From: Desulfuromonadales bacterium
Lineage (GTDB): Bacteria; Desulfobacterota; Desulfuromonadia; Desulfuromonadales; BM103
Length of the DNA stretch: 64,000 nt
Reading direction: 5' to 3'
Assembly: GCA_030145205.1 (NCBI GenBank)
Contig: JAQYVZ010000016.1
Span: 1-64,000, forward strand
Under the pieces are notes generated by a model. That model saw only the letters and a program-made list of their open reading frames with translations. It was not told the DNA's origin and searched no databases. Below are positions 22,848-36,345 of the stretch, in pieces (positions within the stretch are counted from its first letter, which is position 1; each line of letters begins with the position of its first letter). The position numbers were made by a program, and so were the translations under genes.

Positions 22848-23213
22848 ATGGCCCGCTTACTGGTTGTTGATGATGAAGGCGATATTCGCCACCTTTATGC
22901 CGCAGAACTGGAAGACGAGGGTTATGATGTCGCCACCGCCGGCAACAGCGCCGACGCCCTGACTCTGCTTGAACAGCAGACCTTCGATCTGGTGGTTCTC
23001 GACATCCAACTTGACCAGGAAAGCGGCCTGGAACTGCTGCAGGCAATCACCCGCAAGCAGGAGAACCTCCCGGTCATTCTCTGCACGGCCTTCAGCTCCT
23101 ATCGGGATGATTTTTCATCCTGGCTGGCGGATGCCTACGTGGTCAAAAGTTCGGACCTGAATGAACTGAAACAGGAAGTCAAACACATACTAAACAAACA
23201 GCGTCCATCCTGA
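22848..23213 (+). CDS. Stand-alone receiver-domain response regulator
   Basis: 121 residues, a single CheY-like receiver. Acidic pocket D8-D9, phospho-acceptor D52 in VVLDIQL, the switch threonine in ILCTAFSS and the lysine in YVVKSSD are all present. AAGGAG precedes the ATG. There is no output domain, so it must signal by protein contact. It is followed after 69 bases by the nucleotidyltransferase fusion gene on the same strand, and the arrangement suggests it is the first gene of the sugar-nucleotide/glycogen operon. No partner kinase is in the window. Confidence 0.88.
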   Translation: MARLLVVDDEGDIRHLYAAELEDEGYDVATAGNSADALTLLEQQTFDLVVLDIQLDQESGLELLQAITRKQENLPVILCTAFSSYRDDFSSWLADAYVVKSSDLNELKQEVKHILNKQRPS

Positions 23214-23282
23214 GCACCTGGTGAAAGCCCCGACATCCGTTCAAACTGACATTTTTTCCGCGACCAGCCGGGAGGAGTTCCA

Positions 23283-25802
23283 TTGAAAGCCGTCATTATG
23301 GCGGGAGGCTTCGGCACCCGCATCCACCCCCTGACGATCAACCAGCCGAAACCGATGATTCCGCTGATCAACCGACCGATCATGGAACACATCATCCGGC
23401 TGCTCAAAAAACATGGTATTTCGGAACTGGTTCTGCTGCTCTACCATCAACCGGAAGACATCCGCAAATATTTTGGAGATGGCAGCGAATTCGGCATGCG
23501 GATCACCTACGTCGTCCCGCTGGAAGATTTCGGCACCGCCGGCGCGGTCAAAGCGGCGGCCCGGCATCTCGATGAACGCTTCATAATCATCAGCGGTGAC
23601 CTGCTGACCGATTTTGACCTGTCCAAAGCGATCTCTTTTCACGAAGAGAACCAGGCCCTGGCGACCCTGACCCTGACCTCGGTCACCGACCCGTTGCAGT
23701 TCGGCGTGGTTATTACCGATAAGCGGGGACGCATCACCAAATTTCTGGAGAAACCGGGCTGGGGCGAGGTCTTTTCCGACACCATCAACACCGGAATCTA
23801 CGTGCTCGAGCCGGAAGTACTCGATCTGATCCCGGACGGAGAAAATCGTGACTGGGCCAAAGATGTCTTTCCGCAAATGCTCGCGGAAGAAGCACCCCTG
23901 TTCGGCTGCTGTCTGGAAGGCTACTGGGCGGACATCGGCAACACGGACGCCTACCTGGAAGCCTGCCAGGACATTTTCAACGGCAAAGTCAGCGTGCATA
24001 TCTCCGAGCCCTCCCGCCACGCGGGAGAAACCATATACGTCAGCCGCGATGCCAAGGTGGATGAGCAGACGGAACTGCACGGGATGGTTGTGCTTGGCGA
24101 CAACACCCGGGTGTACGGCAAGACCCGCCTGAGCAACTGCTCGGTGGGGCGCAACTGCCTGATCGAGGATGGCGTCATTCTGGAAGACACCGTTCTCTGG
24201 GACAACGTCTATGTCAAGAGCGGCGCACGGATCAAAGGTGCCACCATCTGCAACCAGGTCCGCATCGGGCAGGATGTCCAGATCGAAACCGGAGCCGTCA
24301 TCGCTGACGAAACCACGATCGGCGACCAGGTTCACCTCAAACCCGACGTCAAGATCTGGCCGCGCAAGGTCGTGGAGAGCGGTGCCACCGTCACCGGCAA
24401 CCTGATCTGGGGAGAGAAGTGGCGCAAAAGCCTGTTTGAAGGCGCGGTCGTCCGGGGACTGACCAATATTGAGATGACCCCTGAATTTTCGGCCCGATTG
24501 GGCGCGGCCTACGGCTCGACCCTGCCGAAGGGCAGCTGTGTCCTTGGCGGGCGGGACGCGATCCGCTCGTCACGTATGCTGAAACGCTCCTTTGTTGGCG
24601 GGCTGTTGTCTGCCGGCATCAATGTGCGCGACATCACCATGGTCTCGCTGCCGGTCCTGCGCTACAAGCTGACCACCTTTGGCGAGTCAGGCGGTTTCCA
24701 CTTCCGCCAGTCGCCGCAGGATCCGGCCGCAACGGAAATTATTTTCTGCGAAGAGGACGGCAATGAGTTCTCTGCCACCACCGGCAAGAACGTGGAGCGG
24801 GTTTATTTCAAAGAGAATTTCCGGCGCGCCCATCATTCCGAGCCGGGCGGCATCGAGGAATTGCCACAAATTTACGACTTCTACCGCGAGGGGTTTCTGC
24901 GAGGTCTTGACGGCGAAACCCTGAAACGCCGCGCCCCGAAGCTGGTCCTCGACCTGAACCACTCGCCGGCGGCCGACCTGCTGCCCGACCTGTTGGCCAA
25001 ACTCGGCTTTGCCGTCACGGAACTGAACTCACATGTCCAGGAGAAGGGCGTCGCCCCTTCGAAGGAGGAACTGGAGCAGGCTCTTGACCAACTGAGCCGC
25101 ATTGTCATGACTCTGGGTGCCGATGCCGGCTTCTGGCTCGGGCCCTCCGGGGAAAAAGTCAAGATGGTTGGTGCCGGGGGAAGAATCTTCTCCGACCTCG
25201 AAGCCTTGAACGTCATGACAACCCTGGTTGCTGCTGCGAACAAGTCCGGCTCGATTGTTGTCCCCATGGCGGCACCGGGCACGATCGACAACCTGGCTGA
25301 AGCCTACGGCATGTCGGTCAAACGGACCCGTTCCGACGGCCGCTCACTGGTTGAGGCCGGCCAGGATCGTCAGGTCCGGATGATCGGTTCACTGGACGGC
25401 CGCTTCGGCTTCCCGGCGTTCCAGGCGAACTTCGACGGGCTGTTCACCATCGCCAAAGCAATGGAACTGTGTGCCTTGACCGGCCTCTCTCTGGACGAAG
25501 CCTACCAAGAAGTACCAGAACGCAGTTATCATCACCTGCAACTGCCCTGTTCCTGGGAATACAAAGGCGGCCTGATGCGCCGAATGAGCGAGGATGCTGT
25601 TGACAAAGACGCCTCCTTTGTTGACGGCGTGCGGATCAACGATGGACAAAGCTGGATCCTGGTTCTCCCCGACCCCTACCGCCCCCTGGCCCACCTCTAT
25701 TGCGAATCGCCGGACCAAGCTGTCGCCGAGAAGCTGAAAGAGGAGTATCAGGAGAAAATCACCACCTGGCTGAACGAAATGGCTGAGGACAACAAAGGGT
25801 AA
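23283..25802 (+). CDS. Sugar-1-phosphate nucleotidyltransferase fused to a degenerate phosphomannomutase
   Basis: 839 residues. Residues 1-235 form a nucleotidyltransferase (AVIMAGGFGTRIHPLT, SGDLLTDFDL, EKPGWGEVFSDTINTGIYV), 250-375 a left-handed beta-helix of hexapeptide repeats, and 385-835 a phosphoglucomutase/phosphomannomutase-like region. The mutase half looks inactive: where a TASHNP serine loop is expected the protein has GESGGFHFRQSPQDP (about 467-480), and the metal loop DGDADR is replaced by GADAGFWLGPSG (about 611-622). The start is a TTG with GGAGG upstream. The family is annotated as mannose-1-phosphate guanylyltransferase; glucose-1-phosphate activity is equally possible given the glycogen genes downstream. 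Confidence 0.85.
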   Translation: MKAVIMAGGFGTRIHPLTINQPKPMIPLINRPIMEHIIRLLKKHGISELVLLLYHQPEDIRKYFGDGSEFGMRITYVVPLEDFGTAGAVKAAARHLDERFIIISGDLLTDFDLSKAISFHEENQALATLTLTSVTDPLQFGVVITDKRGRITKFLEKPGWGEVFSDTINTGIYVLEPEVLDLIPDGENRDWAKDVFPQMLAEEAPLFGCCLEGYWADIGNTDAYLEACQDIFNGKVSVHISEPSRHAGETIYVSRDAKVDEQTELHGMVVLGDNTRVYGKTRLSNCSVGRNCLIEDGVILEDTVLWDNVYVKSGARIKGATICNQVRIGQDVQIETGAVIADETTIGDQVHLKPDVKIWPRKVVESGATVTGNLIWGEKWRKSLFEGAVVRGLTNIEMTPEFSARLGAAYGSTLPKGSCVLGGRDAIRSSRMLKRSFVGGLLSAGINVRDITMVSLPVLRYKLTTFGESGGFHFRQSPQDPAATEIIFCEEDGNEFSATTGKNVERVYFKENFRRAHHSEPGGIEELPQIYDFYREGFLRGLDGETLKRRAPKLVLDLNHSPAADLLPDLLAKLGFAVTELNSHVQEKGVAPSKEELEQALDQLSRIVMTLGADAGFWLGPSGEKVKMVGAGGRIFSDLEALNVMTTLVAAANKSGSIVVPMAAPGTIDNLAEAYGMSVKRTRSDGRSLVEAGQDRQVRMIGSLDGRFGFPAFQANFDGLFTIAKAMELCALTGLSLDEAYQEVPERSYHHLQLPCSWEYKGGLMRRMSEDAVDKDASFVDGVRINDGQSWILVLPDPYRPLAHLYCESPDQAVAEKLKEEYQEKITTWLNEMAEDNKG

Positions 25803-25809
25803 ATAAACA

Positions 25810-26850
25810 TTGTCAGACTTTCGATGGGATCCCCTGAAAAACACCTGGACGATTACCGCCAACCACCGGGAACGACACCCGCGCGAATTTTTTATCGAGC
25901 GTCAGCAGATCACCATGACCACCTGTCCCTTCTGTCCGGGACTGGAGGAGCGCACTCCACCGGAAGTGTTTGCCATCCGCCCCCCCGGCAGCCCGACGAA
26001 TGGCCCCGACTGGCAGGTTCGGGTCGTGCCGAACAAGTTCCCACTACTGCGAATTGAAGGTCATCTTGACCGCCATACCGAGGGGCTGTATCAGGCGATG
26101 CAGGGCATTGGTGCGCACGAAGTTATTATCGAAACCCCGGAGCATGCGCCATGGCTCTCCGACCTCGAACTGGGCCAGATGGTCCGCGTGTTCCAGGCTT
26201 ACCGGGAGCGACTGCTCGATTTGCGTCGTGACAAGCGCTTTCGCTACCTGCAGATTTTCAAGAATCATGGCATAGAAGCAGGGTCACCCGTACCGCATTC
26301 ACATTCCCAGCTCATCGCGGTACCGATCACCCCGCCTGTGCTCAAAACGGAGTTAAATGCCTGTCGGAGTTACTTCCAGACCAACGAGCGCTGCCTGATC
26401 TGCGACATGATCGCCCAGGAGCTGACGGACGGTCGACGGGTCGTGTACAGCGACGAGCACTTCCTCGTGGTCACGCCTTATGCCTCGTCCTCCCCTTTCG
26501 AAATGCGCTTGTTCCCACTGCAGCACAACCATGACTTTGCCCTGCAGAACGACACTGAGCTGGCAAACTTTGCCGTCGCCTTGCAAAGCACCCTGTTAAA
26601 GCTGCGCAGCCTGTTGCGGGACCCGCCTTACAATTTCATTTTGCACACGGCACCGCCGGCGCACCCACGACCCGGCCTGCCGGACTACTGGAGTTCACTG
26701 GCGAATGATTACCACTGGCACCTCGAACTGGTCCCCCGCCTCAACCGGATTGCCGGCTTCGAATGGGGCAGCGGCCTGCACATCAACCCCATGCCTCCCG
26801 AGGCTGCGGCACGCCATCTGCGCAATACCGACCCATCACCCGGGCTGTGA
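25810..26850 (+). CDS. galT: Galactose-1-phosphate uridylyltransferase-like (GalT, HIT superfamily)
   Basis: 346 residues, nucleotidyl transfer between a sugar phosphate and a nucleotide sugar. The zinc pair CPFC near residue 39 and the C-terminal YHWHLELVPRL are typical. The active-site motif is PHSHSQ rather than HPHGQ; the nucleophilic His-x-His pair is kept, and this variant is seen in GalT relatives that work on other nucleotides. It starts with TTG 7 bases after the fusion gene, with a weak AAAGGG ribosome-binding site. Given its glycogen neighbours it may exchange glucose-1-phosphate and ADP-glucose; that is inference. Confidence 0.82.
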   Translation: MSDFRWDPLKNTWTITANHRERHPREFFIERQQITMTTCPFCPGLEERTPPEVFAIRPPGSPTNGPDWQVRVVPNKFPLLRIEGHLDRHTEGLYQAMQGIGAHEVIIETPEHAPWLSDLELGQMVRVFQAYRERLLDLRRDKRFRYLQIFKNHGIEAGSPVPHSHSQLIAVPITPPVLKTELNACRSYFQTNERCLICDMIAQELTDGRRVVYSDEHFLVVTPYASSSPFEMRLFPLQHNHDFALQNDTELANFAVALQSTLLKLRSLLRDPPYNFILHTAPPAHPRPGLPDYWSSLANDYHWHLELVPRLNRIAGFEWGSGLHINPMPPEAAARHLRNTDPSPGL

Positions 26851-26871
26851 CCGGCGAGGACCCTGATTGCC

Positions 26872-29800
26872 ATGACGGCTCCCACCCACACAAACACTGC
26901 CCAACAGGGCCGCCCGAGATTGCTGGTCAATCACGCCAGCCGACAACGCCTGACGACGGCCGGCCTGCAGCATCACCATGACGCCCCGCTCGACCTGACC
27001 GCGGTCCGCCAGATTGCCCATCAACTCGAGGTCAACGGCACGCGGCTTTTCCTGCTGGCACAGTTAAATACCGCCCTGCAGTGGCTCTGCCTGCACTATC
27101 TGTCGCATCACGCAATCGAACCCCATTGGCAGGACGTCCGTTTCGGAGCGAACCGCCACCCTTATCCGAGCCTGGGCCAAACCTTTTGTCTGTTTCAGAA
27201 GGCCTACGCTTTACGCGACCTGCCGGACGCAGCGCTGCAGCCACAAGGTCACGGCGACGCGGTGGCCACGGCACGCCGCAACCTTGTCGCAGCGATCTGC
27301 CTGCTCGACATTCAACTGGACAATCCGGCCCTGGACGACCTTGCGCCCCTGTTCACGGAACAAACACCCGCGCACAGACTGCGTTACAAGGAAGTCCTCG
27401 ACCGCCTGACCGCCATGCGGCCCGGGCAACCAGGGGCAACGCCCTTCGAACAGCCGCTGCGCGCCCTGCTCGAAGCGCCGCGCAAGGCGGCACCACAGGA
27501 CTTGGCGGGGCAACTCGATTACGCTGTCGCCCACTGGGGCGATCTGCTGCCAGCAGAGCTGGTTCGAAATCTCACGGTGGCGCAGGCGATTGCCCGGGAA
27601 GAAGCACAACAACGCGCACCCGGCCCCGGCCCGGTGGCCGCACCCCGGTTCAGCAGTACTCCGGAGACCTGGGAGCCGGCCGCCTTTACCCCGGACACCG
27701 ACTGGATGCCGAACGCCGTCCTGCTGGCCAAGTCGATTCATGTCTGGCTGGGACAGCTCAGTCGTCAGTACGATACCACGATCGCTACCCTGGAACAGAT
27801 TCCCGACGCCGAGCTCGACCGCCTGGCCGGATGGGGCATCAACGCTCTCTGGCTAATCGGCATCTGGCAGCGTTCACAGGCGTCACGCACCATCAAGCAG
27901 ATGCGCGGCAACCCGGAAGCGGAGGCCTCGGCCTACGCCCTGAGCAACTACCGGGTCGCGATCGACCTGGGCGGCGAAGCGGCCCTCACTAATCTGGAGG
28001 CACGTTGCGCAGCTCGTGGCATCCGTCTCGCCTGCGACGTAGTCCCCAACCATACCGGCATCGATTCGGAGTGGGTGCGACAACATCCCGACTGGTTTAT
28101 CCAAAGCGACCATGCGCCCTACCCCGCCTACCGTTTTTCCGGGCCGGACCTTTGCGATGATCCGGCGGTCAGCATCCGTATCGAAGACGGTTACTGGGAT
28201 CACAGCGATGCCGCCGTAACCTTCGAGCACCTCGATCACCGGACCGGGCAACGGCGCTATGTTTACCATGGCAACGACGGCACCCACATGCCCTGGAACG
28301 ATACGGCCCAGCTCAACTTCCTGCTGCCTGAGGTGCGCCGGGTGATGAGCGACCTGATCATTGATGTCGCCAGGCGTTTCCGACTGATCCGCTTCGATGC
28401 CGCCATGACCCTGGCGCGCAAACATTTCCGGCGACTCTGGTTCCCGCCGCCCGGCGGCAGCGCCGGCGTCCCCTCTCGTTCGGGGTGGTGGCTCTCGGAT
28501 GAAGACTTCGATCGCGCCTTCCCGGTCGAGTTCTGGCGGGAAGTGGTCGACCGCATCAACCGCGAAGCGCCCGACACGCTGTTGATCGCCGAAGCCTTCT
28601 GGCTGATGGAGAGTTACTTCGTCCGCACCCTCGGTATGCACCGGGTCTACAACAGCGCCTTTATGCACCTGTTGAAACGGGAAGAGAACGCCAAATACCG
28701 TCGGATTCTGAAGGATGTCCTCGCTTACAATCCCGAAATCCTGAAACGCTACGTCAACTTCATGAACAACCCCGACGAAGCAACCGCCGTAGAACAATTC
28801 GGCAAGGACGACAAGTACTTCGGCACGGCGGTCCTGCTGGCCACCCTGCCGGGACTGCCGATGTTCGGCCATGGTCAGATCGAAGGCTATCGAGAAAAAT
28901 ACGGGATGGAATTCCGGCAGGCCTACTGGGATGAAACGCCGGACACCGCCTTCATTGCGCATCATGAGGCCCAGATCTGTCCCCTGTTGCGGCAGCGACA
29001 GCTGTTCTCCGAGGTGCAGCATTTCGCCCTGTATGATCTGTTGACCGCCCAGGACGTCAACGAGAACCTGTTCATCTACAGCAACGGCTGCGGTGAAGAA
29101 CGCTGTCTGGTAGTCTACAACAACAGCCCTGAACCGGCGAACGGCCGACTCTCCGCCTCCGCGCCCAAAGCACGTCCTGAACAGGAAGGACAGACCGAAC
29201 CGGGGCGGCCGCTGGCCGAGGAGCTTGGTCTTTCTGCCGCGAATACACCCTTCTGTCGCTTTCGCGACCATCGGGACAACCGGGAGCACCTGAGGCCGCT
29301 CAGCGCCTTGCAGAACGGCCTTGAGATCTCCCTGGACGCCTACCAGTATCACGTGTTCTACGATTTCCAACCCCTGCCGGACCCTGACGGGATCTGGGCA
29401 CGGCTGTATCGTCACCTGAACGGAAGGGCGGTTCCCAATCTGGACGCGGCCGCGCTACGCTTTAAACAGCCCGCACTCTGGCAAGCTACGCAGCAGCTGT
29501 TTGCACCCAACCGCCTGCAAAAACTCGCCCGGAGCCTGCCCGATTTCCCCCTGTCGACAGACGTTCGCGCCCAGCTTGACACACTGGTCGCTGACTTCGA
29601 GGGCTGGCTTAACATCTTTACCTCTGCAGCACAGCTGACCATCGCCGGCAGTGGCCCTGCCTTGCAGGACCGGTTGACGGCCATATTCAGCCGCGTCAAG
29701 CAGGGGCTGAACCAACAGGACGATGGACAGCGTCTCGCACGCCTCTGGTCTGGCACCGATGCTCTGGATGGGCTGACCTATCCGCTGCTCTGCTGGCAGC

Positions 29801-30240
29801 TGTGTGAAGAGTTCATGCAGCAGCTCTACCAGCAACGCGACCCACAGCGCCTGCGCAAGGACTTCAAGCGTTTCGGGCTCGATCAAGCTTGGCAGGAGAC
29901 CCTGCCCACAGCGGAAACAGCGGAGGATTTCACCCTGGTTGAACTGCTATTGCTGACCGCAGAGACCTTACCGCATCCGGCCGCAAACCTGTCAGCATTG
30001 CAGCAATTGACAGACCAGCCGCAGGCTCACGACTGGTTGCAGATCAACCAGTATGAGGAAGACACCTGGTTTGACCATGATCACATGCAGCGGCTGTGCG
30101 CCGCCCTGGTTCTGCAAAGATTGTGCTTACCGACCGGCTCGCCGGTACAGCTGACAACTGACCTTGAGCGTCTCCAGCGACGAGCTGAACGCGTTGAAGC
30201 TGGCGGCTGCCGGCTGGATAAATTTCTGACGGTGGGCTAG
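26872..30240 (+). CDS. Large GH13 alpha-amylase-family protein
   Basis: 1122 residues, about twice the usual alpha-amylase length. A mainly helical N-terminal region (1-270) precedes a GH13 barrel with DVVPNHTG, the nucleophile Asp 509 in LIRFDAAMTL, the acid/base Glu 574 in LIAEAFW and the third Asp 635 in MNNPDEATAVEQ, so the catalytic triad is present although region IV reads NPDE rather than NHDE. About 330 residues of helical C-terminal sequence follow residue 800. There is no signal peptide, so it acts in the cytoplasm on glycogen or maltooligosaccharides. It sits 21 bases after galT and 55 bases before glgA. Exact specificity is not readable. Confidence 0.85.
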   Translation: MTAPTHTNTAQQGRPRLLVNHASRQRLTTAGLQHHHDAPLDLTAVRQIAHQLEVNGTRLFLLAQLNTALQWLCLHYLSHHAIEPHWQDVRFGANRHPYPSLGQTFCLFQKAYALRDLPDAALQPQGHGDAVATARRNLVAAICLLDIQLDNPALDDLAPLFTEQTPAHRLRYKEVLDRLTAMRPGQPGATPFEQPLRALLEAPRKAAPQDLAGQLDYAVAHWGDLLPAELVRNLTVAQAIAREEAQQRAPGPGPVAAPRFSSTPETWEPAAFTPDTDWMPNAVLLAKSIHVWLGQLSRQYDTTIATLEQIPDAELDRLAGWGINALWLIGIWQRSQASRTIKQMRGNPEAEASAYALSNYRVAIDLGGEAALTNLEARCAARGIRLACDVVPNHTGIDSEWVRQHPDWFIQSDHAPYPAYRFSGPDLCDDPAVSIRIEDGYWDHSDAAVTFEHLDHRTGQRRYVYHGNDGTHMPWNDTAQLNFLLPEVRRVMSDLIIDVARRFRLIRFDAAMTLARKHFRRLWFPPPGGSAGVPSRSGWWLSDEDFDRAFPVEFWREVVDRINREAPDTLLIAEAFWLMESYFVRTLGMHRVYNSAFMHLLKREENAKYRRILKDVLAYNPEILKRYVNFMNNPDEATAVEQFGKDDKYFGTAVLLATLPGLPMFGHGQIEGYREKYGMEFRQAYWDETPDTAFIAHHEAQICPLLRQRQLFSEVQHFALYDLLTAQDVNENLFIYSNGCGEERCLVVYNNSPEPANGRLSASAPKARPEQEGQTEPGRPLAEELGLSAANTPFCRFRDHRDNREHLRPLSALQNGLEISLDAYQYHVFYDFQPLPDPDGIWARLYRHLNGRAVPNLDAAALRFKQPALWQATQQLFAPNRLQKLARSLPDFPLSTDVRAQLDTLVADFEGWLNIFTSAAQLTIAGSGPALQDRLTAIFSRVKQGLNQQDDGQRLARLWSGTDALDGLTYPLLCWQLCEEFMQQLYQQRDPQRLRKDFKRFGLDQAWQETLPTAETAEDFTLVELLLLTAETLPHPAANLSALQQLTDQPQAHDWLQINQYEEDTWFDHDHMQRLCAALVLQRLCLPTGSPVQLTTDLERLQRRAERVEAGGCRLDKFLTVG

Positions 30241-30295
30241 AATACGCTGGCCGATCAAACATCACCACCTGGCAACGAAAACGGTCTAAATCCTT

Positions 30296-31765
30296 ATGCG
30301 CAATACACCGTTGAACATCCTGATGGTCGCATCCGAAGCGGCACCCTTTGCCAAAACCGGCGGACTGGCTGATGTCGTCGGCGCCCTGCCACAGGCTCTG
30401 CAGGCCCAGGGACACGATGTCCGCCTGGTGATGCCCTGGTACCGCTCGGTCCGAAAAAACAGCGGCCCGGTGCGCAAGAACCGGAGCAGCCTTGCAGTCC
30501 CGATGGGCGGTGCGGTTGACACCGTGGCCTTCCGGCAGGGGGCTCTTGGAGCGGTTCCAGTCTACTTCATCGACGCCCCAGAGCTTTACGACCGGGCGGG
30601 ACTGTATGGAGAAGAGGGTCAGGATTACCCAGACAACGCCCTGCGCTTCGGGCTGCTCAGCCGGGCCGCCCTGGAGCTGACACGGAAGATCTCTTTTGTG
30701 CCGGACATCGTGCACGCCCATGACTGGCAAGCCGGCCTGGTACCGGTTTACCTGAATCAGCATCTCTGGCGGGATGCCCATTTCGCCAAAACCGGCAGCC
30801 TGTTTTCTATTCACAACCTCGGCTATCAGGGGCAGTTTGCAACGGAAGCTCTGGTCGGGCTCGGCCTGGATTCCTCTTTGGCCGCTCCGGACAGGCTCGA
30901 ATATTTCGGCCGCATCTCCCTGCTCAAGGGCGGCATCCGCTATGCGGACCGGATCAGCACCGTTTCGCCAACCTACTGCCGGGAGATCCAGACGCCAGAA
31001 TTCGGCATGGGCCTGGATGGTCTGCTGACCTCGCGGCAAACCCATTTGCACGGCATTCTGAACGGCCTTGATGATGATCTCTGGAGCCCGGCCACCGACC
31101 CGGCCCTGCCGGAGAATTACTCGACCTCAAACCTCCGCGGCAAGGCGGTCTGTAAGGCGGCCCTACAGGATGAGCTCGGCCTGCAGCCGGACCCGGCCGT
31201 ACCGATTGTCGCAATGGTCACCCGACTGGACTCACAAAAAGGGATCGATCTGCTGATTGACACGTGGCAGACCCTGCTCGACCGTAAAATTCAGCTGGTC
31301 ATTCTCGGCTCGGGAGCCCCCGACTACGAGCGGGCCCTGACCACCCAGGGTCAGGCCTACCCCGGCCGGGTTGCTTTCTCACGCCGCTTTGACGACAAGT
31401 TGGCCCGCCGCATCTATGCCGGCAGCGACCTGTTCCTCATGCCGAGCCGTTACGAACCCTGCGGCCTCGGGCAATTGATCGCCCTGCGCTACGGCTGTGT
31501 TCCGCTGGTCCGAGCGACCGGTGGCCTGGCAGACACCATCGTCGACCCATGCGATCGCACCGCGCCGGCTAACGGTTTTCTGTTTCAGGAGCAGACCGGC
31601 ACGGCCCTGATCGAAGGTCTCGACCGGGCCCTGTCAACATATCACCAGGCGAAAGCATGGCAGACCCTGCTCCGCTACGGCATGCAGCAGGATTTTTCCT
31701 GGCAACGCGCGGCCGCAGCCTACTCGGATCTTTACAGGAGAATTCTCAGTGACCGATCAGGCTGA
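30296..31765 (+). CDS. glgA: GlgA, glycogen synthase
   Basis: GT5 family enzyme that extends alpha-1,4-glucan from ADP-glucose. 489 residues. The N-terminal NILMVASEAAPFAKTGGLADVVGALP holds the KTGGL nucleotide-sugar motif (Lys 20), DIVHAHDWQAGLVP is intact, and the C-terminal PSRYEPCGLGQLIALRYG with RATGGLADTI completes the active site. An unusually basic insert (RSVRKNSGPVRKNRSSL) follows the first 50 residues. Its 3' end overlaps the start of the small acidic gene by 17 bases. Confidence 0.95.
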   Translation: MRNTPLNILMVASEAAPFAKTGGLADVVGALPQALQAQGHDVRLVMPWYRSVRKNSGPVRKNRSSLAVPMGGAVDTVAFRQGALGAVPVYFIDAPELYDRAGLYGEEGQDYPDNALRFGLLSRAALELTRKISFVPDIVHAHDWQAGLVPVYLNQHLWRDAHFAKTGSLFSIHNLGYQGQFATEALVGLGLDSSLAAPDRLEYFGRISLLKGGIRYADRISTVSPTYCREIQTPEFGMGLDGLLTSRQTHLHGILNGLDDDLWSPATDPALPENYSTSNLRGKAVCKAALQDELGLQPDPAVPIVAMVTRLDSQKGIDLLIDTWQTLLDRKIQLVILGSGAPDYERALTTQGQAYPGRVAFSRRFDDKLARRIYAGSDLFLMPSRYEPCGLGQLIALRYGCVPLVRATGGLADTIVDPCDRTAPANGFLFQEQTGTALIEGLDRALSTYHQAKAWQTLLRYGMQQDFSWQRAAAAYSDLYRRILSDRSG

Positions 31766-31961
31766 CAAACCACAAACGGAGCCGGACGTTCCGGCAGCTG
31801 AGCCGAATCCGCTGGATGAGCTGGCAGAGTTGGAGCAGACCATTCGTCGCCGACTGCGCCGCAACCAGCTATTCCTCGAGCGGTTTATGGATGAGGATTT
31901 TGAGGAGGACGAAAAGGACCTCGATGATCCGGAACCAGAGGACATTCAGGAGTCCGACTGA
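31749..31961 (+). CDS. Small acidic protein coupled to glgA
   Basis: 70 residues starting at a GTG inside the last codons of glgA, with AGGAG 8 bases upstream, a good translation signal. The composition is extreme: an N-terminal Pro/Glu/Asp stretch, a central helix LAELEQTIRRRLRRNQLFLERF that is basic, and an Asp/Glu-rich tail (FEEDEKDLDDPEPEDIQ). No catalytic motif. It may be a regulatory partner of glycogen synthase or a nucleoid-type small protein; neither can be shown. I do not recognise a named family. Confidence 0.6.
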   Translation: MTDQADKPQTEPDVPAAEPNPLDELAELEQTIRRRLRRNQLFLERFMDEDFEEDEKDLDDPEPEDIQESD

Positions 31962-32022: not shown

Positions 32023-32913
32023 TTATTGGATACAGCGCCCACTCAGGCACCTTGCTCCGCGGTCACACAAACAGTCCCTCGGGCAGGTGCTGCAGTTCTC
32101 ACCGGCAGTTGGATCACAACGGCCATCGCCGCATGCTGAGACACCGAGACATCTGCCGCTGATACACCTTTCATCGCTGGCACACGAGCAGTCCCGTGGG
32201 CAGGTGCTGCAGTTCTCACCGGCAGTTGGATCACAGCGGCCATCGCCGCATGCTGAAACGCCGAGACATCTGCCGCTGATACACCTTTCATCGCTGGCAC
32301 ACGAGCAGTCCCGTGGGCAGGTGCTGCAGTTCTCGCCGGCAGTTGGATCACAACGGCCATCGCCGCATGCTGAAACGCCGAGACATCTGCCGCTGATACA
32401 TCTTTCATCGCTGGCACACGAGCAGTCCCGTGGGCAGGTGCTGCAGTTCTCGCCGGCAGTTGGATCACAGCGGCCATCGCCGCATGCTGAAACACCGAGA
32501 CATCTGCCGCTAACACATCTTTCCCCACCGGCACACGAGCAATCGACCGGGCAGGTGCTGCAGTTCTCGCCGGCATGAGCATCACAGTTGCGGTCGCCAC
32601 ATGCAGGCTCTGAGCTACGGTCTATATTTTCAGGGACGTCTTTTTTGCCCTTGCCCGGACGCGGGCTTTCGGGAGTGGGGGTTGCTGGTCCTGTCTTTCT
32701 ACCGCAGAACCGTTCGGCCTTTTCCAGACCTTTAAAAAACCATCCACCAGCTTGTTTGCAGTCTGTGGGGAGTGCATCAAAAACATGCCCGTCTTTGCAG
32801 CACCAGCCTATCTCAACTTGCTTGGCAGTGGCAGGTGTGACACCGCAAACAACGAACTGAGTGAGCGCAACGAGAACAAGGCCACAAAACAGATGCGGAA
32901 TTGGCAGCTTCAT
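32023..32913 (-). CDS. Secreted Cys-rich protein with five tandem CGDGxC repeats
   Basis: 296 residues from the ATG at 32913 (GGAGGG upstream). A signal peptide of about 31 residues (hydrophobic core GLVLVALTQFVVCGV, ends ATA) leads into a small Cys domain (IGWCCKDGHVF...CKQAGGWFF) and a Pro/Lys linker. Five repeats of 39 residues follow, pattern ACGDGRCDPTAGENCSTCP then RDCSCASDERCISGRCLGVS, eight or nine cysteines each. This CGDGxC..GENCSTCPxDC pattern is common in exported deltaproteobacterial proteins. The repeats probably form disulfide-bonded or metal-binding modules outside the cytoplasm. Function unknown. Confidence 0.75.
   Translation of the reverse strand: MKLPIPHLFCGLVLVALTQFVVCGVTPATAKQVEIGWCCKDGHVFDALPTDCKQAGGWFFKGLEKAERFCGRKTGPATPTPESPRPGKGKKDVPENIDRSSEPACGDRNCDAHAGENCSTCPVDCSCAGGERCVSGRCLGVSACGDGRCDPTAGENCSTCPRDCSCASDERCISGRCLGVSACGDGRCDPTAGENCSTCPRDCSCASDERCISGRCLGVSACGDGRCDPTAGENCSTCPRDCSCASDERCISGRCLGVSACGDGRCDPTAGENCSTCPRDCLCDRGARCLSGRCIQ
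32040..32624. repeat. Five tandem 117-bp repeats inside the Cys-rich gene
   Basis: The string CAGGTGCTGCAGTTCTC starts at 32084, 32201, 32318, 32435 and 32552, an exact 117-base period (39 codons). Units two to four are nearly identical even at silent positions, while the outer units differ more, which points to recent expansion by slippage or recombination. Repeat number is likely to vary between strains. Confidence 0.9.
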
Positions 32914-33049
32914 GATCCCTCCCACTGGTGCGGTTAACTCTTGATGTTTGTTGCTCAGCCGATATTTTTAATGGTTTCAGACGCCCGATAATTGAAGTCA
33001 AATAAAGTATAAATGGCGTTGGTAGAAAGTCCAGATATGAGGGGGAAGT

Positions 33050-33358
33050 TCATTCGGCGTCATCACTCTCCTGCAAGCGTCGCAAGTAGTCTTTCCATTC
33101 AACCGGCAACAGATCTTTCTTGTGGCTATTACAGGTTTTACACGCTGGCACGCAGTTGCCTTTAGTTGTGCGACCACCGCGTACCAGAGGGACCACATGA
33201 TCCAGAGTCAACTCGGCAGCCGGCACCTTCGCATGGCAATAGTAACATTCACCGGCAGCGATCCGATTGCGCCACCACTGGCTACGGCGCAGTTCCCGTG
33301 CCTTCTGTCGCTCCTTTTTGAGATGTTCTTCCGAGGCCCCGCCCCAGTCATCAATCAT
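33050..33358 (-). CDS. HNH endonuclease domain protein
   Basis: 102 residues from the ATG at 33358 (AGGA upstream). A basic, charged N-terminal helix (EEHLKKERQKARELRRSQWW) precedes an HNH domain: CYYC near residue 38, LTLDHVVPLVRGG with the catalytic DH, then GNCVPACKTCNSHK with the second zinc pair. Such small HNH proteins occur alone and in defence or mobile contexts; here there is no phage or restriction gene beside it. It lies between the Cys-rich gene and trkA, transcribed opposite to trkA. Confidence 0.8.
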   Translation of the reverse strand: MIDDWGGASEEHLKKERQKARELRRSQWWRNRIAAGECYYCHAKVPAAELTLDHVVPLVRGGRTTKGNCVPACKTCNSHKKDLLPVEWKDYLRRLQESDDAE

Positions 33359-33540
33359 GGCTTGTCCTACTTCTGATGGGCTTAAATTGGAGGACCATTT
33401 TATACACACCCATGATATAATGTCGATTTTTAATAATCGATTCGTTCATGGTAAGACAGCATGACAGTACAATCACGTCCGTCATGTGAAGATGGGCCAA
33501 CTCCTCGAAGAGAGGGCTCATTCAAAGGTCGTCATCACTT

Positions 33541-34893
33541 ATGAATATTCTGATTGTTGGCGCGGGGCAGGTTGGCCAGTTTCTGTCGGAACGGCTCTCC
33601 CTTGAGGGTCACGACGTTACTCTGCTCGACCGCGACCAGGAACATCTCACTGAAGCCCAGGATCGCCTCAATGTCATGACGGTGCTCGGCAACGGCGCCA
33701 GCGCCGAGGCGATGGAACAGGCCGGCATCAAGAATATGGACATCGTCATGGCAGTCACTGACTTTGACGAAGTCAATATCCTCGCCTGCCTGCTGGCCAG
33801 GGAATACGGCGTCCACCGGCGCATCGCCCGCATCAAGAGCATCGACTACCAGAGCCACGGCGCGGTCCTGTCGAAAGAAAAACTCGGCATCGACCTGATG
33901 ATCAACCCGGACGATGCCGTTGCCGACGAACTGGCCAACCTGGCCGGCCGGGCCGGCACCTTTGACGTCGCCGAGTTCGTCGAGGGCAAGGTCCAGTTTC
34001 TCGGTTACCGGATCACCGAGCAGAGCCCCTTGTGCAACCTGACCCTGCGTGAGCTGGGCGAGATCCGCGGCATGTACCGCTTCGTGGTGGTCGCGATTGC
34101 CCGCCAGGGCCAGACCATCATCCCGCGCGGCGACGACACCATCCAGGTCGGTGACAGCATCTTCATTTTCGCACATAAGGAAGAGCTACCAGCGATCCAG
34201 TACCTGCTGAAGATCGAGCAGGAGCCGAAACGCAAAAACCGTCGGGCCTTCATCCTGGGTGGCGGGCGCATCGGTCTAAGGTTGGCACAACACCTCGAAG
34301 AACGTCACTTCAATGTCAGGCTGGTGGAACGCGACCAGGAGCGCTGCGAGGTCTTGTCGGCGAAACTCCAGAAGACCATGGTGATCCAGGCGGAAGGTGC
34401 CGACATCCGCACCCTGCTGGATGAGGGTGTCGGCGAAGCGGATGTCTTCATCGCTGTCACCGAAAACGATGAGACCAACATCCTCTGTTCGCTGCTCTGC
34501 CGTCATCATGGCACCCAACGCACCCTCGCGCTGGTCAGCCGACCTGAACTGCTTGACCTGGCACCCTCGTTGGGGATTGACGCCTGTGTGTCACCGCGTC
34601 TGTCGGCTGCCGGAGCGATTCTGAAATATGTCCGCCGCGGTGATGTCATCTCCCTGGCGGCAGTGGAAGGCAGTAACTCCGAAGTTCTGGAGATTCTGAT
34701 CAAGGAGCAGAGCCCGATCATTGGCACCCCTCTGAAAGAGCTGCATATTCCGCGTGGTGCCATCATCGGCGCCATCGTCCACGGCGACAACTACGAAATC
34801 GCTGACGGCGACAGTTGCCTGAAAGTCGGCGACCGGGTGCTGGTGTTTGCGTTACCGACCGCCCTGGCCAAAGTCGAGCGGTTCTTTGAGTAA
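33541..34893 (+). CDS. trkA: TrkA, potassium uptake regulatory subunit
   Basis: Cytoplasmic gating subunit of the Trk potassium channel, 450 residues with two tandem RCK units. The first nucleotide site is NILIVGAGQVGQFL (residues 2-15), the second FILGGGRIGLRLAQHL (about 237-252); each is followed by a TrkA-C domain, the second ending DRVLVFALP. NAD(H)/NADP binding regulates TrkH. The downstream trkH starts 9 bases later, so they form one operon. The upstream 130 bases are AT-rich and probably hold the promoter. Confidence 0.95.
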   Translation: MNILIVGAGQVGQFLSERLSLEGHDVTLLDRDQEHLTEAQDRLNVMTVLGNGASAEAMEQAGIKNMDIVMAVTDFDEVNILACLLAREYGVHRRIARIKSIDYQSHGAVLSKEKLGIDLMINPDDAVADELANLAGRAGTFDVAEFVEGKVQFLGYRITEQSPLCNLTLRELGEIRGMYRFVVVAIARQGQTIIPRGDDTIQVGDSIFIFAHKEELPAIQYLLKIEQEPKRKNRRAFILGGGRIGLRLAQHLEERHFNVRLVERDQERCEVLSAKLQKTMVIQAEGADIRTLLDEGVGEADVFIAVTENDETNILCSLLCRHHGTQRTLALVSRPELLDLAPSLGIDACVSPRLSAAGAILKYVRRGDVISLAAVEGSNSEVLEILIKEQSPIIGTPLKELHIPRGAIIGAIVHGDNYEIADGDSCLKVGDRVLVFALPTALAKVERFFE

Positions 34894-34902
34894 ACATACG
34901 CC

Positions 34903-36345
34903 ATGAACATTACTCTGACCCTGCGCATTCTCGGCGCCTTATTGATCTTTCTCGCGGGCGCCCTGCTTCTGCCTATCCCCTTCTCCCTCTTTTACGGCGA
35001 CGGCGCGGCCATGGCGTTCATCTTCTCCGCGCTCATTTCGCTGGTCGTCGGCGGGGGTCTGTTCACAGGCTGTATTTCGAGCAAGGAGATGTCGGTGCGC
35101 GAAGGGTTTGCCGTGGTCACCTTCGGTTGGACCTTCTTCGCCCTGTTCGGCGCACTCCCTTTCGTGATCTCCGGAGCCATTCCCTCCTACCTGGATGCCT
35201 TTTTCGAAACCATGAGTGGGTTCACCACGACCGGCTCAACCATTTTGACCAATATCGAAGCGATGCCGGCCAGTCTGCTGCTCTGGCGCTCCATGACCCA
35301 GTGGTTCGGCGGCATGGGGATTATCGTACTCTCTCTGGCCATCCTGCCGATGCTGGGCGTCGGCGGCATGCAGCTGTTCAAGGCGGAGGTCCCCGGACCG
35401 ACCGCCGACCGGCTGAAACCACGTATTCAGGATACCGCCAAACTGCTCTGGGGCGTCTATGCGCTGCTGACCATCGCTGAAATCATCCTGCTGATGGCCG
35501 GCAACATGGGCTTCTTCGATGCCCTCAATCATGCCTTCACCACCATGGCGACCGGCGGTTTCTCTACCCGCAACGCCTCCATAGCGGCCTACAACAGCGC
35601 CTACATCGACTGGGTGATCACACTGTTCATGTTCCTCGCCGGGGTCAATTTCTCCCTGCATTACCTCGGCCTGCGCGGCCGTTTCATGGACTACCTCCGC
35701 AACGAGGAGTTCCGTTTCTACCTGGTCCTAGTGGTTGCCGGTATAGCCCTGATAGCCATTTTCAACGCTGGCGGCAGCTATCCCACATTTTGGGAGAACC
35801 TGCGTTACAGCGCCTTCCAGATGGTCTCGATCATAACCACCACCGGTTTCGGCACGGCGGACTACGAACTCTGGCCAGTGCTCTGCCAGTACCTGCTGGT
35901 GATCGCCATGTTTGTCGGTGGCTGCGCCGGATCAACCGGCGGTGGCATAAAAGTCGCGCGCCTGCTGCTGCTGGCCAAACACGCCCAGACGCAACTGTTC
36001 CGCCTGATCCATCCGCGGGCGGTCCGCCTAGTCAAACTGGGGGACCGGCCGGTTGACAAGGAAGTGATGCAGTCGATTCTCGGCTTTTTCGCCCTTTACA
36101 TGGCAGTGTTCGTGATTGCCTCATTCATCATGGCCGGCACCGGTATGGACCTGGTCTCCGCCGGTGGGGCCGTCGTCGCCACGCTCAGCAACATCGGTCC
36201 CGGGGTCGGCAGCGTCGGCCCAGCCGACAACTTTGCCCACGTCCCTGCTTTGGGCAAAGTCACCCTGTCGCTCTGCATGCTGCTCGGCCGACTCGAACTG
36301 TTTACTGTCCTGGTTCTGGTTTTTCCGACTTTCTGGCATAAATAA
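34903..36345 (+). CDS. trkH: TrkH, potassium uptake membrane subunit
   Basis: Inner-membrane potassium channel subunit, 480 residues. All four pore loops are visible: TTTGSTIL, MATGGFST, TTTGFGTAD and SNIGPGVGSVG, with the first three keeping the selectivity glycine. The C-terminal LGRLELFTVLVLVFPTFW is the usual TrkH ending. Works with TrkA encoded immediately upstream. Confidence 0.96.
   Translation: MNITLTLRILGALLIFLAGALLLPIPFSLFYGDGAAMAFIFSALISLVVGGGLFTGCISSKEMSVREGFAVVTFGWTFFALFGALPFVISGAIPSYLDAFFETMSGFTTTGSTILTNIEAMPASLLLWRSMTQWFGGMGIIVLSLAILPMLGVGGMQLFKAEVPGPTADRLKPRIQDTAKLLWGVYALLTIAEIILLMAGNMGFFDALNHAFTTMATGGFSTRNASIAAYNSAYIDWVITLFMFLAGVNFSLHYLGLRGRFMDYLRNEEFRFYLVLVVAGIALIAIFNAGGSYPTFWENLRYSAFQMVSIITTTGFGTADYELWPVLCQYLLVIAMFVGGCAGSTGGGIKVARLLLLAKHAQTQLFRLIHPRAVRLVKLGDRPVDKEVMQSILGFFALYMAVFVIASFIMAGTGMDLVSAGGAVVATLSNIGPGVGSVGPADNFAHVPALGKVTLSLCMLLGRLELFTVLVLVFPTFWHK

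Follow-up and report, generated by a model that had tools for sequence, protein, structure and literature searches.

The 64,000-nucleotide stretch of DNA analysed here (the window) belongs to a Desulfuromonadales bacterium of family BM103 (class Desulfuromonadia, phylum Desulfobacterota; contig JAQYVZ010000016.1 of assembly GCA_030145205.1). Between positions 22848 and 31961 it holds a cluster of six genes which, judged from sequence comparison, may constitute a two-component-controlled, non-classical glycogen synthesis module whose receiver acts by contact; the chances of this overall reading appear to us evenly balanced. Three parts of the cluster stand out, namely a nucleotidyltransferase fused to a dead mutase domain, an unclassified GH13 protein and a family of acidic microproteins. 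The six genes are the following.

22848..23213, + strand: stand-alone CheY-like receiver with no output domain; ATG start; PF00072 86.9 bits, residues 7-113 of 123
23283..25802, + strand: fusion protein, made of a nucleotidyltransferase, a left-handed beta-helix and a degenerate phosphohexomutase domain (about residues 384-830); TTG start, 839 aa; PF00483 177 bits, PF02878 67 bits
25810..26850, + strand: GalT-superfamily protein of the ADP-glucose-phosphorylase type, HSHSQ motif; 346 aa; PF01087 42 bits
26872..30240, + strand: large, unclassified GH13 protein carrying additional helical regions at both the N and the C terminus; 1122 aa; PF00128 40.3 bits against a cut-off of 22
30296..31765, + strand: GlgA, glycogen/starch synthase of the ADP-glucose type (GT5); 489 aa; PF08323 285 bits
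31749..31961, + strand: acidic microprotein, motif N-x-x-F-L-E followed by an acidic tail; GTG start, 70 aa

A sequence-only reading of the window had placed these genes head to tail with small gaps, and all six open reading frames (ORFs) indeed lie on the forward strand in the order then claimed. From the receiver through the fusion protein, the GalT-type protein and the GH13 protein to GlgA the gaps are 69, 7, 21 and 55 nucleotides, and the acidic ORF begins 17 nucleotides inside the end of glgA. From spacing and conservation we infer that the six genes are co-transcribed; scans for consensus promoters and terminators gave numbers close to those of shuffled sequences (5 versus 3.1 and 8 versus 9.9) and are uninformative. 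The same reading had found signalling and glucan genes together in a layout unlike the classical glgBXCAP operon, which is borne out, glgA being the only gene of that operon in the cluster.

In the proposed mechanism, the nucleotidyltransferase/pseudo-mutase would activate glucose-1-phosphate, probably to ADP-glucose, for use by GlgA, which would elongate the chain. The GalT-type protein would interconvert ADP-glucose plus phosphate and ADP plus glucose-1-phosphate, so draining or refilling the donor pool. Without GlgB, the alpha-1,6 branches would be left to the GH13 protein, or it would perform an equivalent transglycosylation. The microprotein would be made together with GlgA, its probable binding partner. 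Finally, the phosphorylated receiver would switch the storage flux by contact, most likely acting on the nucleotidyltransferase through the dead mutase domain.

The fusion protein and its receiver

The 839-residue protein had been described as a nucleotidyltransferase/mutase. The first half of this name stands, the nucleotidyltransferase motifs GGFGTR, PKP, EKP and YW-x-D being intact; as to the second, what remains of the mutase is its fold. In an AlphaFold2 model (mean predicted local distance difference test score, pLDDT, 82.7), the second half shows the four-domain phosphohexomutase fold (Foldseek match to 9du5, of the phosphoglucomutase/phosphomannomutase (PGM/PMM) type, TMt 0.87), and comparison with 9du5, 1wqa and 2f7l gives TMt values of 0.85-0.87. 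The phosphoserine (TASHNP), metal (DGDxDR) and phosphate (RxSGTEP) loops were each found in 0 of 84 full-length homologues (80 from named loci, 3 from records of a plasmid collection, and that of the window), against 3 of 3 genuine mutases, even though a serine is often retained at the aligned phosphoserine position. On these alignments the mutase half is a fold without its catalytic motifs. The sugar-loop pattern GExSGH, absent from all 84 homologues but also from the 3 genuine mutases, carries no weight; by alignment, this loop is changed in the class. Elsewhere in the domain, residues such as R424, R431, R435, K502, R515, K761 and R766 are conserved, which would fit a binding surface. The genome containing the window (G000, an assembly of 317 contigs, from which a gene may be missing) has three other PGM/PMM-type matches, and in the distant loci L162, L165 and L167 a motif-bearing mutase is encoded just downstream of the fusion protein; mutase activity would therefore be available elsewhere. 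Record names of the homologues include Aquificota, Deferribacteres, Elusimicrobia, Coprothermobacterota, Campylobacterota and Actinomycetota.

Gene surroundings were compared in several sets of loci. In a phylum sample of 297 genomes, 44 gave a GH13 match at E<=1e-20 and 39 loci were fetched; a further 40 loci were chosen around the fusion protein or the GH13 protein in the order and class, and a further 80 came from named genomes, at least 552 relatives of the fusion protein being listed. The sets L006-L084 and L088-L167 overlap in part. Loci were treated as distinct when they were not repeats, as judged on the final 400 residues of the fusion protein, which leaves 113 (110 of them with at least 700 bases upstream). 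Repeats were kept in the counts of the GH13 triad, of H-x-H-x-Q and of the GlgA motifs, and in the 67-locus counts of the microprotein. Because of the way loci were ranked, the counts lean to the class.

A receiver is encoded directly upstream of the fusion protein in 101 of the 110 distinct loci with room for it, those of Aquificota and Deferribacteres included, and no other neighbour of the 839-residue protein is as constant. Besides the phospho-acceptor Asp52, the receiver of the window has Asp8/Asp9 and Lys100. Residues D52, D88, W92, K100 and S101 occur in all 111 receivers adjoining a fusion protein (103 distinct loci; the distant L157, L159, L160 and L161 are counted here and not among the controls). 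In the non-adjacent receivers of the same loci, a small set of 25 controls, D52 and K100 are both present in 25, whereas D88 is found once and W92 and S101 never. The three discriminating positions, D88, W92 and S101, form part of the alpha4-beta5 face. Moreover, 12 loci are the most distant, at 41-50% identity, and eight of these bear other phylum names; no glgA or GH13 gene was tagged in them. A receiver stands beside the fusion protein in 7 of the 12, that is, in two Aquificota, three Deferribacteres/Deferribacteraceae, L157 and L159. Receivers without an output domain act by protein contact, and such an action is therefore expected here. Because of the adjacency in distant loci and the fixed alpha4-beta5 face, the fusion protein would be the most likely target, reached through contact.

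The gene order itself recurs in relatives within the order Desulfuromonadales, and in a reduced form in the class, as found in the synteny survey for which the sequence-only reading had called. The nearest named record among the matches listed is a Desulfuromonadales metagenome-assembled genome (L088, 81% identity in the fusion protein). In its fullest arrangement (L059, where the kinase, the GH57 protein and the fusion of GH13 with GlgA were identified by Pfam), the locus encodes a histidine kinase, the receiver, the fusion protein, a GH57 protein, the GalT-type protein, GH13 fused to GlgA and the acidic ORF. Fusion protein and GH13 protein are both present in 37 distinct loci. Where at least 9 kb are available downstream, GH57 is found in 46, the GalT-type protein in 47, GH13 in 29 and GlgA in 41 of 68 distinct loci. 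Other variants within the order are L022, which has the fusion protein, the GalT-type protein and GlgA beside GH13, and L037, where the GalT-type protein is beside a GH13 ORF that is also GlgA. In the other orders of the class GH13 is usually absent from the cluster, and some loci are without glgA. Outside the order, GH13 stands apart from the other cluster genes (37 of the 39 phylum loci show weak paralogues only); the exception is found in the class members L119 and L120 (Geobacter argillaceus), where a GH13 homologue on the strand of glgA starts some 2 kb beyond it. Loci of Aquificota, Deferribacteres and Coprothermobacterota likewise have GH57 flanking the fusion protein, and no PF03065 match was found in the three genomes of the window's family that were checked (G000, G322 and G306).

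Some further arrangements were noted. The Aquificota loci L150 and L151 have the kinase, the receiver and the fusion protein, an ORF of 656/658 residues and the GalT-type protein; by Pfam, this ORF in L150 is of the GH57 4-alpha-glucanotransferase type, and the gene for a PHO4 phosphate transporter is found upstream. On a Streptomyces plasmid, the dead-mutase fusion (L087:4624-7505) is preceded by an overlapping gene for a STAS-domain protein, another small protein of signalling type. On the Sulfuricurvum plasmid pSULKU01 (L085:6220-12290), the fusion protein is encoded between HD-domain/phospholipase A and patatin-like genes, and the 20-kb stretch holds no annotated glycogen gene. In a family of the same order (f111; G344, G334, G366, G358, G325 and G312), fusion protein and GH13 protein are absent from the matches listed, and glgC, glgB and glgP are close together in the classical fashion.

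Genes of the polymer: GlgA, microprotein, GalT-type and GH13 proteins

The glycogen synthase predicted earlier is clearly recognised (TIGR02095, 569.2 bits against a cut-off of 328.45), and the motifs KTGGL and EPCGL are visible in the window's sequence. The acidic small protein that had been reported next to it is present too and, beyond what had been claimed, belongs to a conserved family. An acidic ORF, taken as one of 40-130 residues directly after glgA, occurs in 50 of 59 distinct loci, of which 36 have N-x-x-F-L-[ED], 38 end in EEL and 27 have both; with repeats kept, the ORF is found in 56, the motif in 41 and the EEL end in 41 of 67. The window's copy has N-x-x-F-L-E and lacks the EEL end. 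By the same procedure, the motif followed six other genes in 1/78 (GalT-type), 0/121, 0/72, 0/16, 0/37 and 0/80 cases, the acidic ORFs after the kinase being most likely the receivers. The start is within 8 nucleotides of the glgA stop in 33 of 41 cases (repeats kept; start chosen by acidity and length). For four copies, no Pfam or NCBIfam model was matched over cut-off, the best match being at chance level (E 0.05). Values of pN/pS (non-synonymous over synonymous differences) are mixed, the lowest pairs lying at 0.14-0.29 and the median of 53 pairs at 0.63, so that the motif and the position are what define the family. By these two features, the acidic ORF is a conserved microprotein family coupled to glgA, and one without a library model.

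The third gene had been called GalT-like. Membership of the GalT superfamily is retained, but the closest relative is ADP-glucose phosphorylase: the best matches in the Protein Data Bank (PDB) are 1z84 and 2h39 (212, precisely 211.8, and 207 bits, over query residues 3-339), versus 83 bits for the E. coli-type GalT 1hxp. 1z84 and 2h39 are structures of the Arabidopsis protein At5g18200, an ADP-glucose phosphorylase. The plant protein shares H-S-H-S-Q and CxFCxG with that of the cluster, which differs in being bacterial and in lying in a glycogen cluster. Identification as a true GalT was rejected, the scores falling below the cut-offs of TIGR00209 (99.2 versus 102.1 bits) and PRK11720 (123 versus 448). 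H-x-H-x-Q is found in 73 of 78 GalT-type sequences. By similarity, the protein is thus nearest to ADP-glucose phosphorylases, and, because it sits in a GlgA cluster, a reaction of ADP-glucose with inorganic phosphate would be the most economical reading.

A large GH13 protein had been announced as well; PF00128 is matched over its cut-off and the catalytic triad (Asp509, Glu574 and Asp635) is kept, its three residues being the same in each of the 81 sequences aligned. Region IV of GH13 enzymes usually reads N-H-D, with a histidine; here it is N-P-D-E, with proline in 81/81. Similarity to solved GH13 structures is weak (3 chains at E 3e-6 to 2e-5; by profile, 2 chains at E<=1e-6), and the GlgB model TIGR01515 is not among the 5 models matched. 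In 11 of the 37 distinct loci with fusion protein and GH13 protein, the latter is fused N-terminal to GlgA, as verified by Pfam in L059; such fusions occur in more than one family.

The other enzymes of glycogen metabolism were searched for in G000. PF00128 matches are limited to this GH13 protein and to GlgX (TIGR02100, 698 versus 641 bits); GlgX and GlgC are on other contigs. No GH57 match was found, nor any match to GlgB (TIGR01515) at E<=1e-60, and glycogen phosphorylase was not found at E<=1e-30. Because other candidates were not found, the GH13 protein would be, by elimination rather than by homology, the prime candidate for branching in this genome. Of 70 genomes of the order, at least 13 encode no GH13 protein other than the orthologue of this one. 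They include G299, G314 and G318, each a single contig, as well as G345 with two contigs and G313 with six; both G314 and G318 have just one GH57 protein, and it too is encoded in the locus. GlgB is over the TIGR01515 cut-off in 12 of the 70 genomes, namely in 3 of the 52 that have the GH13 protein and in 9 of the 18 that lack it (Fisher p=1.1e-4, a value that overstates independence, since 7 of these 9 are one family). Five more genomes of the order have GlgB matches below the cut-off. Presence of the GH13 protein was taken from the genome search, complemented by a PF00128 search for G491 and G496.

Alternatively, the GH13 protein would be a 4-alpha-glucanotransferase, an amylase or a debranching-like enzyme, with branching left to an unrecognised enzyme or with a linear polymer as the product. 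We place this possibility a little short of even. It agrees with the lack of any match to a branching-enzyme model and with the unusual N-P-D-E of region IV; the GH57 protein of the relatives' operons could branch; and, in the available passages of a review on alpha-glucans, the linear GlgA product of P. aeruginosa feeds trehalose synthesis (PMC11046441). Such a view is opposed by the situation in G000, which keeps the debranching enzyme GlgX and where no GH57 or further GH13 protein was found, and by the direct fusion to GlgA, which fits an action on the growing chain.

The sugar nucleotide and the target of the receiver

The proposal that GlgA, the GH13 protein and the receiver work with the fusion protein has to be set against several observations that weigh against it. 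Nine of the 110 loci have no tagged receiver, although one of them, L124, has a receiver by tblastn. The decay of the mutase is incomplete, because the distant L163, L165 and L167 keep a GE-x-x-GG-like sugar loop. Conservation of the old mutase loops as a new pocket was considered and rejected, the loops being no more conserved than the rest of the domain (entropy of 4 loops of 10 residues versus random windows, 1.093 versus 1.158 in the class, P=0.42, and 1.449 versus 1.469 in all 84, P=0.48). In GlgA, KTGGL is present in only 50 of 68 sequences (EPCGL in 64 of 68). The AlphaFold model of the GH13 protein, built from 16 sequences, has a mean pLDDT of 71.2, with part of the barrel below 50, a quality insufficient for assigning a fold; the Foldseek matches obtained with it (template modelling scores of 0.14-0.19 on the query) indicate a GH13-like protein and no more. 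Among solved structures, the best scores of the nucleotidyltransferase are those with 8x7s, a UDP-glucose enzyme, and with GDP-mannose enzymes. Finally, 104 of the 155 class genomes with the fusion protein, G000 included, also have GlgC, and a class-wide mutual exclusion of the two proteins was rejected (104 genomes with both, 51 + 29 with a single one, 10 with neither, p=0.44, in a 194-genome test that takes two sets drawn by the same rule as identical).

These last points bear on the nature of the donor. The fusion protein is not GlgC (TIGR02091, 110.6 bits against a cut-off of 424.9), and the label of mannose-1-phosphate guanylyltransferase fails the curated cut-off. In 51 of the 155 class genomes with the fusion protein, no GlgC match was found at E<=1e-60. 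Among the matches listed for 94 genomes of the order, GlgC is present in 26 of 59 with the fusion protein and in 29 of 35 without. G267 has neither GlgC nor a PF00128 match, and its locus consists of the fusion protein, GlgA and the microprotein. Conversely, G178, which is without the fusion protein and has GlgC, keeps GH57, the GalT-type protein and GH13 fused to GlgA. The classical GlgC of G000 is unlinked to the cluster (L169:4282-5598, - strand), near RtcB-like and NiFe hydrogenase genes. A role with glucose and GlgA is favoured by context because of the 51 genomes without GlgC, including the minimal locus of G267. The fusion protein would thus probably activate glucose-1-phosphate to ADP-glucose, the nucleotide being deduced from this context.

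It may also be envisaged that the product of the fusion protein is UDP-glucose or GDP-mannose, destined for sugars of the cell surface, and that its place in an operon with glycogen genes is incidental. This would account for its closest solved relatives being UDP-glucose and GDP-mannose pyrophosphorylases, for its co-occurrence with GlgC in 104/155 class genomes, for the several class loci without glgA, and for the position of the Streptomyces and Sulfuricurvum copies, which do not lie near glycogen genes (the Streptomyces one has a phosphomannomutase gene close by). It accords less well with the presence of GH57, GalT-type, GH13 and GlgA genes around the fusion protein in the class, and of GH57 in three other phyla, or with the minimal GlgA locus of G267, where GlgC was not found. 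On balance, we regard a role in surface sugars as somewhat doubtful.

The receiver had been described as a lone one, and so it is in the window's family. In relatives, however, a GAF-HisKA-HATPase kinase is encoded directly upstream (67 of 88 distinct loci with a receiver and enough room). The orphan state is therefore not ancestral and is confined to that family, which has no adjacent kinase and where the best full-length kinase matches, in six genomes, are only 30-32% identical. This low identity, together with the many possible kinases of G000 (18 matches at E<=1e-20 to the relatives' kinase), would suit a receiver that never touches the enzymes, being a phosphorelay element or a phosphate sink with its target elsewhere, so that adjacency would reflect co-expression. 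Such a receiver would leave unexplained why its adjacency to the fusion protein persists in distant loci without other tagged cluster genes, and the invariance of its alpha4-beta5 face suggests a single partner that has been conserved. We consider a target elsewhere to be unlikely.

Upstream of the cluster is a radical-SAM gene of divergent orientation (TIGR01212, 361 bits). Downstream are trkA and the next gene (33541-36345, +), presumably trkH by the usual pairing and by position; the same holds in several relatives (for instance L046, L047, L049, L055, L058 and L059). Two ORFs of the reverse strand separate the cluster from trkA. One (32023-32925, -) is predicted to encode a Cys-rich protein over a 117-bp tandem repeat of 4.4 copies with 94% matches; the other, small one (33050-33409, -) has the pattern CxxC...DHVVP...C..CN..K and looks HNH-like by eye.

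Known systems and possible significance

With the classical glgBXCAP or GlgC-GlgA operon, the cluster has in common a polymerase GlgA of the ADP-glucose type, a GH13 gene alongside and a likely role in storage. Unlike it, the cluster is without glgB, glgC, glgP and glgX, and has instead the dead-mutase nucleotidyltransferase, the ADP-glucose-phosphorylase-type protein, the receiver and the microprotein. Fungal alpha-glucan synthases also carry GH13 followed by GT5 in one chain, but are membrane enzymes for the synthesis of wall glucan. GlmM has a regulatory role on CdaA. In the GlmM-CdaA complexes (PDB 7olh, 9g69), as proposed here, a phosphohexomutase fold is the binding partner of another enzyme; there, however, the proteins are separate, the mutase is active and c-di-AMP is synthesised. 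PGM5, as presented in the accessible part of PMC7761743, likewise has the phosphohexomutase fold without mutase activity. It differs in keeping substrate binding, whereas the protein of the cluster has lost the phosphoserine, metal and phosphate loops and is fused to a nucleotidyltransferase. In Criblamydiaceae/Waddliaceae, the available passages of PMC11046441 describe a glgA-glgB fusion, again a glycogen synthase fused to a GH13 enzyme; its branching domain is GlgB and inactive, while here the GH13 protein is of another type, has an intact triad and is N-terminal to GlgA.

That the cluster would be an ordinary glycogen cluster, with known families rearranged and no new mechanism, is quite improbable: GlgA, GH13, the GalT fold and the receiver do all belong to known families, but three mutase motifs are absent from the fusion in 84 of 84 cases, the microprotein family has no library model, GH13 is found fused to GlgA, and none of these parts appears in the available passages of the alpha-glucan review (PMC11046441). 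Taken to its full extent, our proposal is that the phosphorylated receiver docks on the dead phosphohexomutase domain and thereby switches a pyrophosphorylase, as a metabolic two-component output without transcription in several phyla; in the order, this would be accompanied by a new GH13 branching class fused with GlgA and by a GlgA-binding microprotein. All these elements being correct together is a speculative and rather improbable outcome.

Titles, abstracts and passages of the open-access literature yielded no description of the module, which does not imply its absence from print; those of PMC10010611, PMC2825233 and PMC11239784 hold nothing decisive. Geobacter sulfurreducens, a relative, is reported, in the accessible part of PMC10424081, to accumulate glycogen with fumarate but not with Fe(III) hydroxide, and no account of the control of this glycogen was found in the portions of the open-access literature surveyed. 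If our reading is true, sensor kinase, receiver and donor-making enzyme would make up a direct signalling route into carbon storage. A regulatory domain derived from a dead mutase, an unclassified GH13 candidate for branching and a microprotein family would be gained at the same time. The cluster thus suggests that there may be an unrecognised way of controlling carbon storage.

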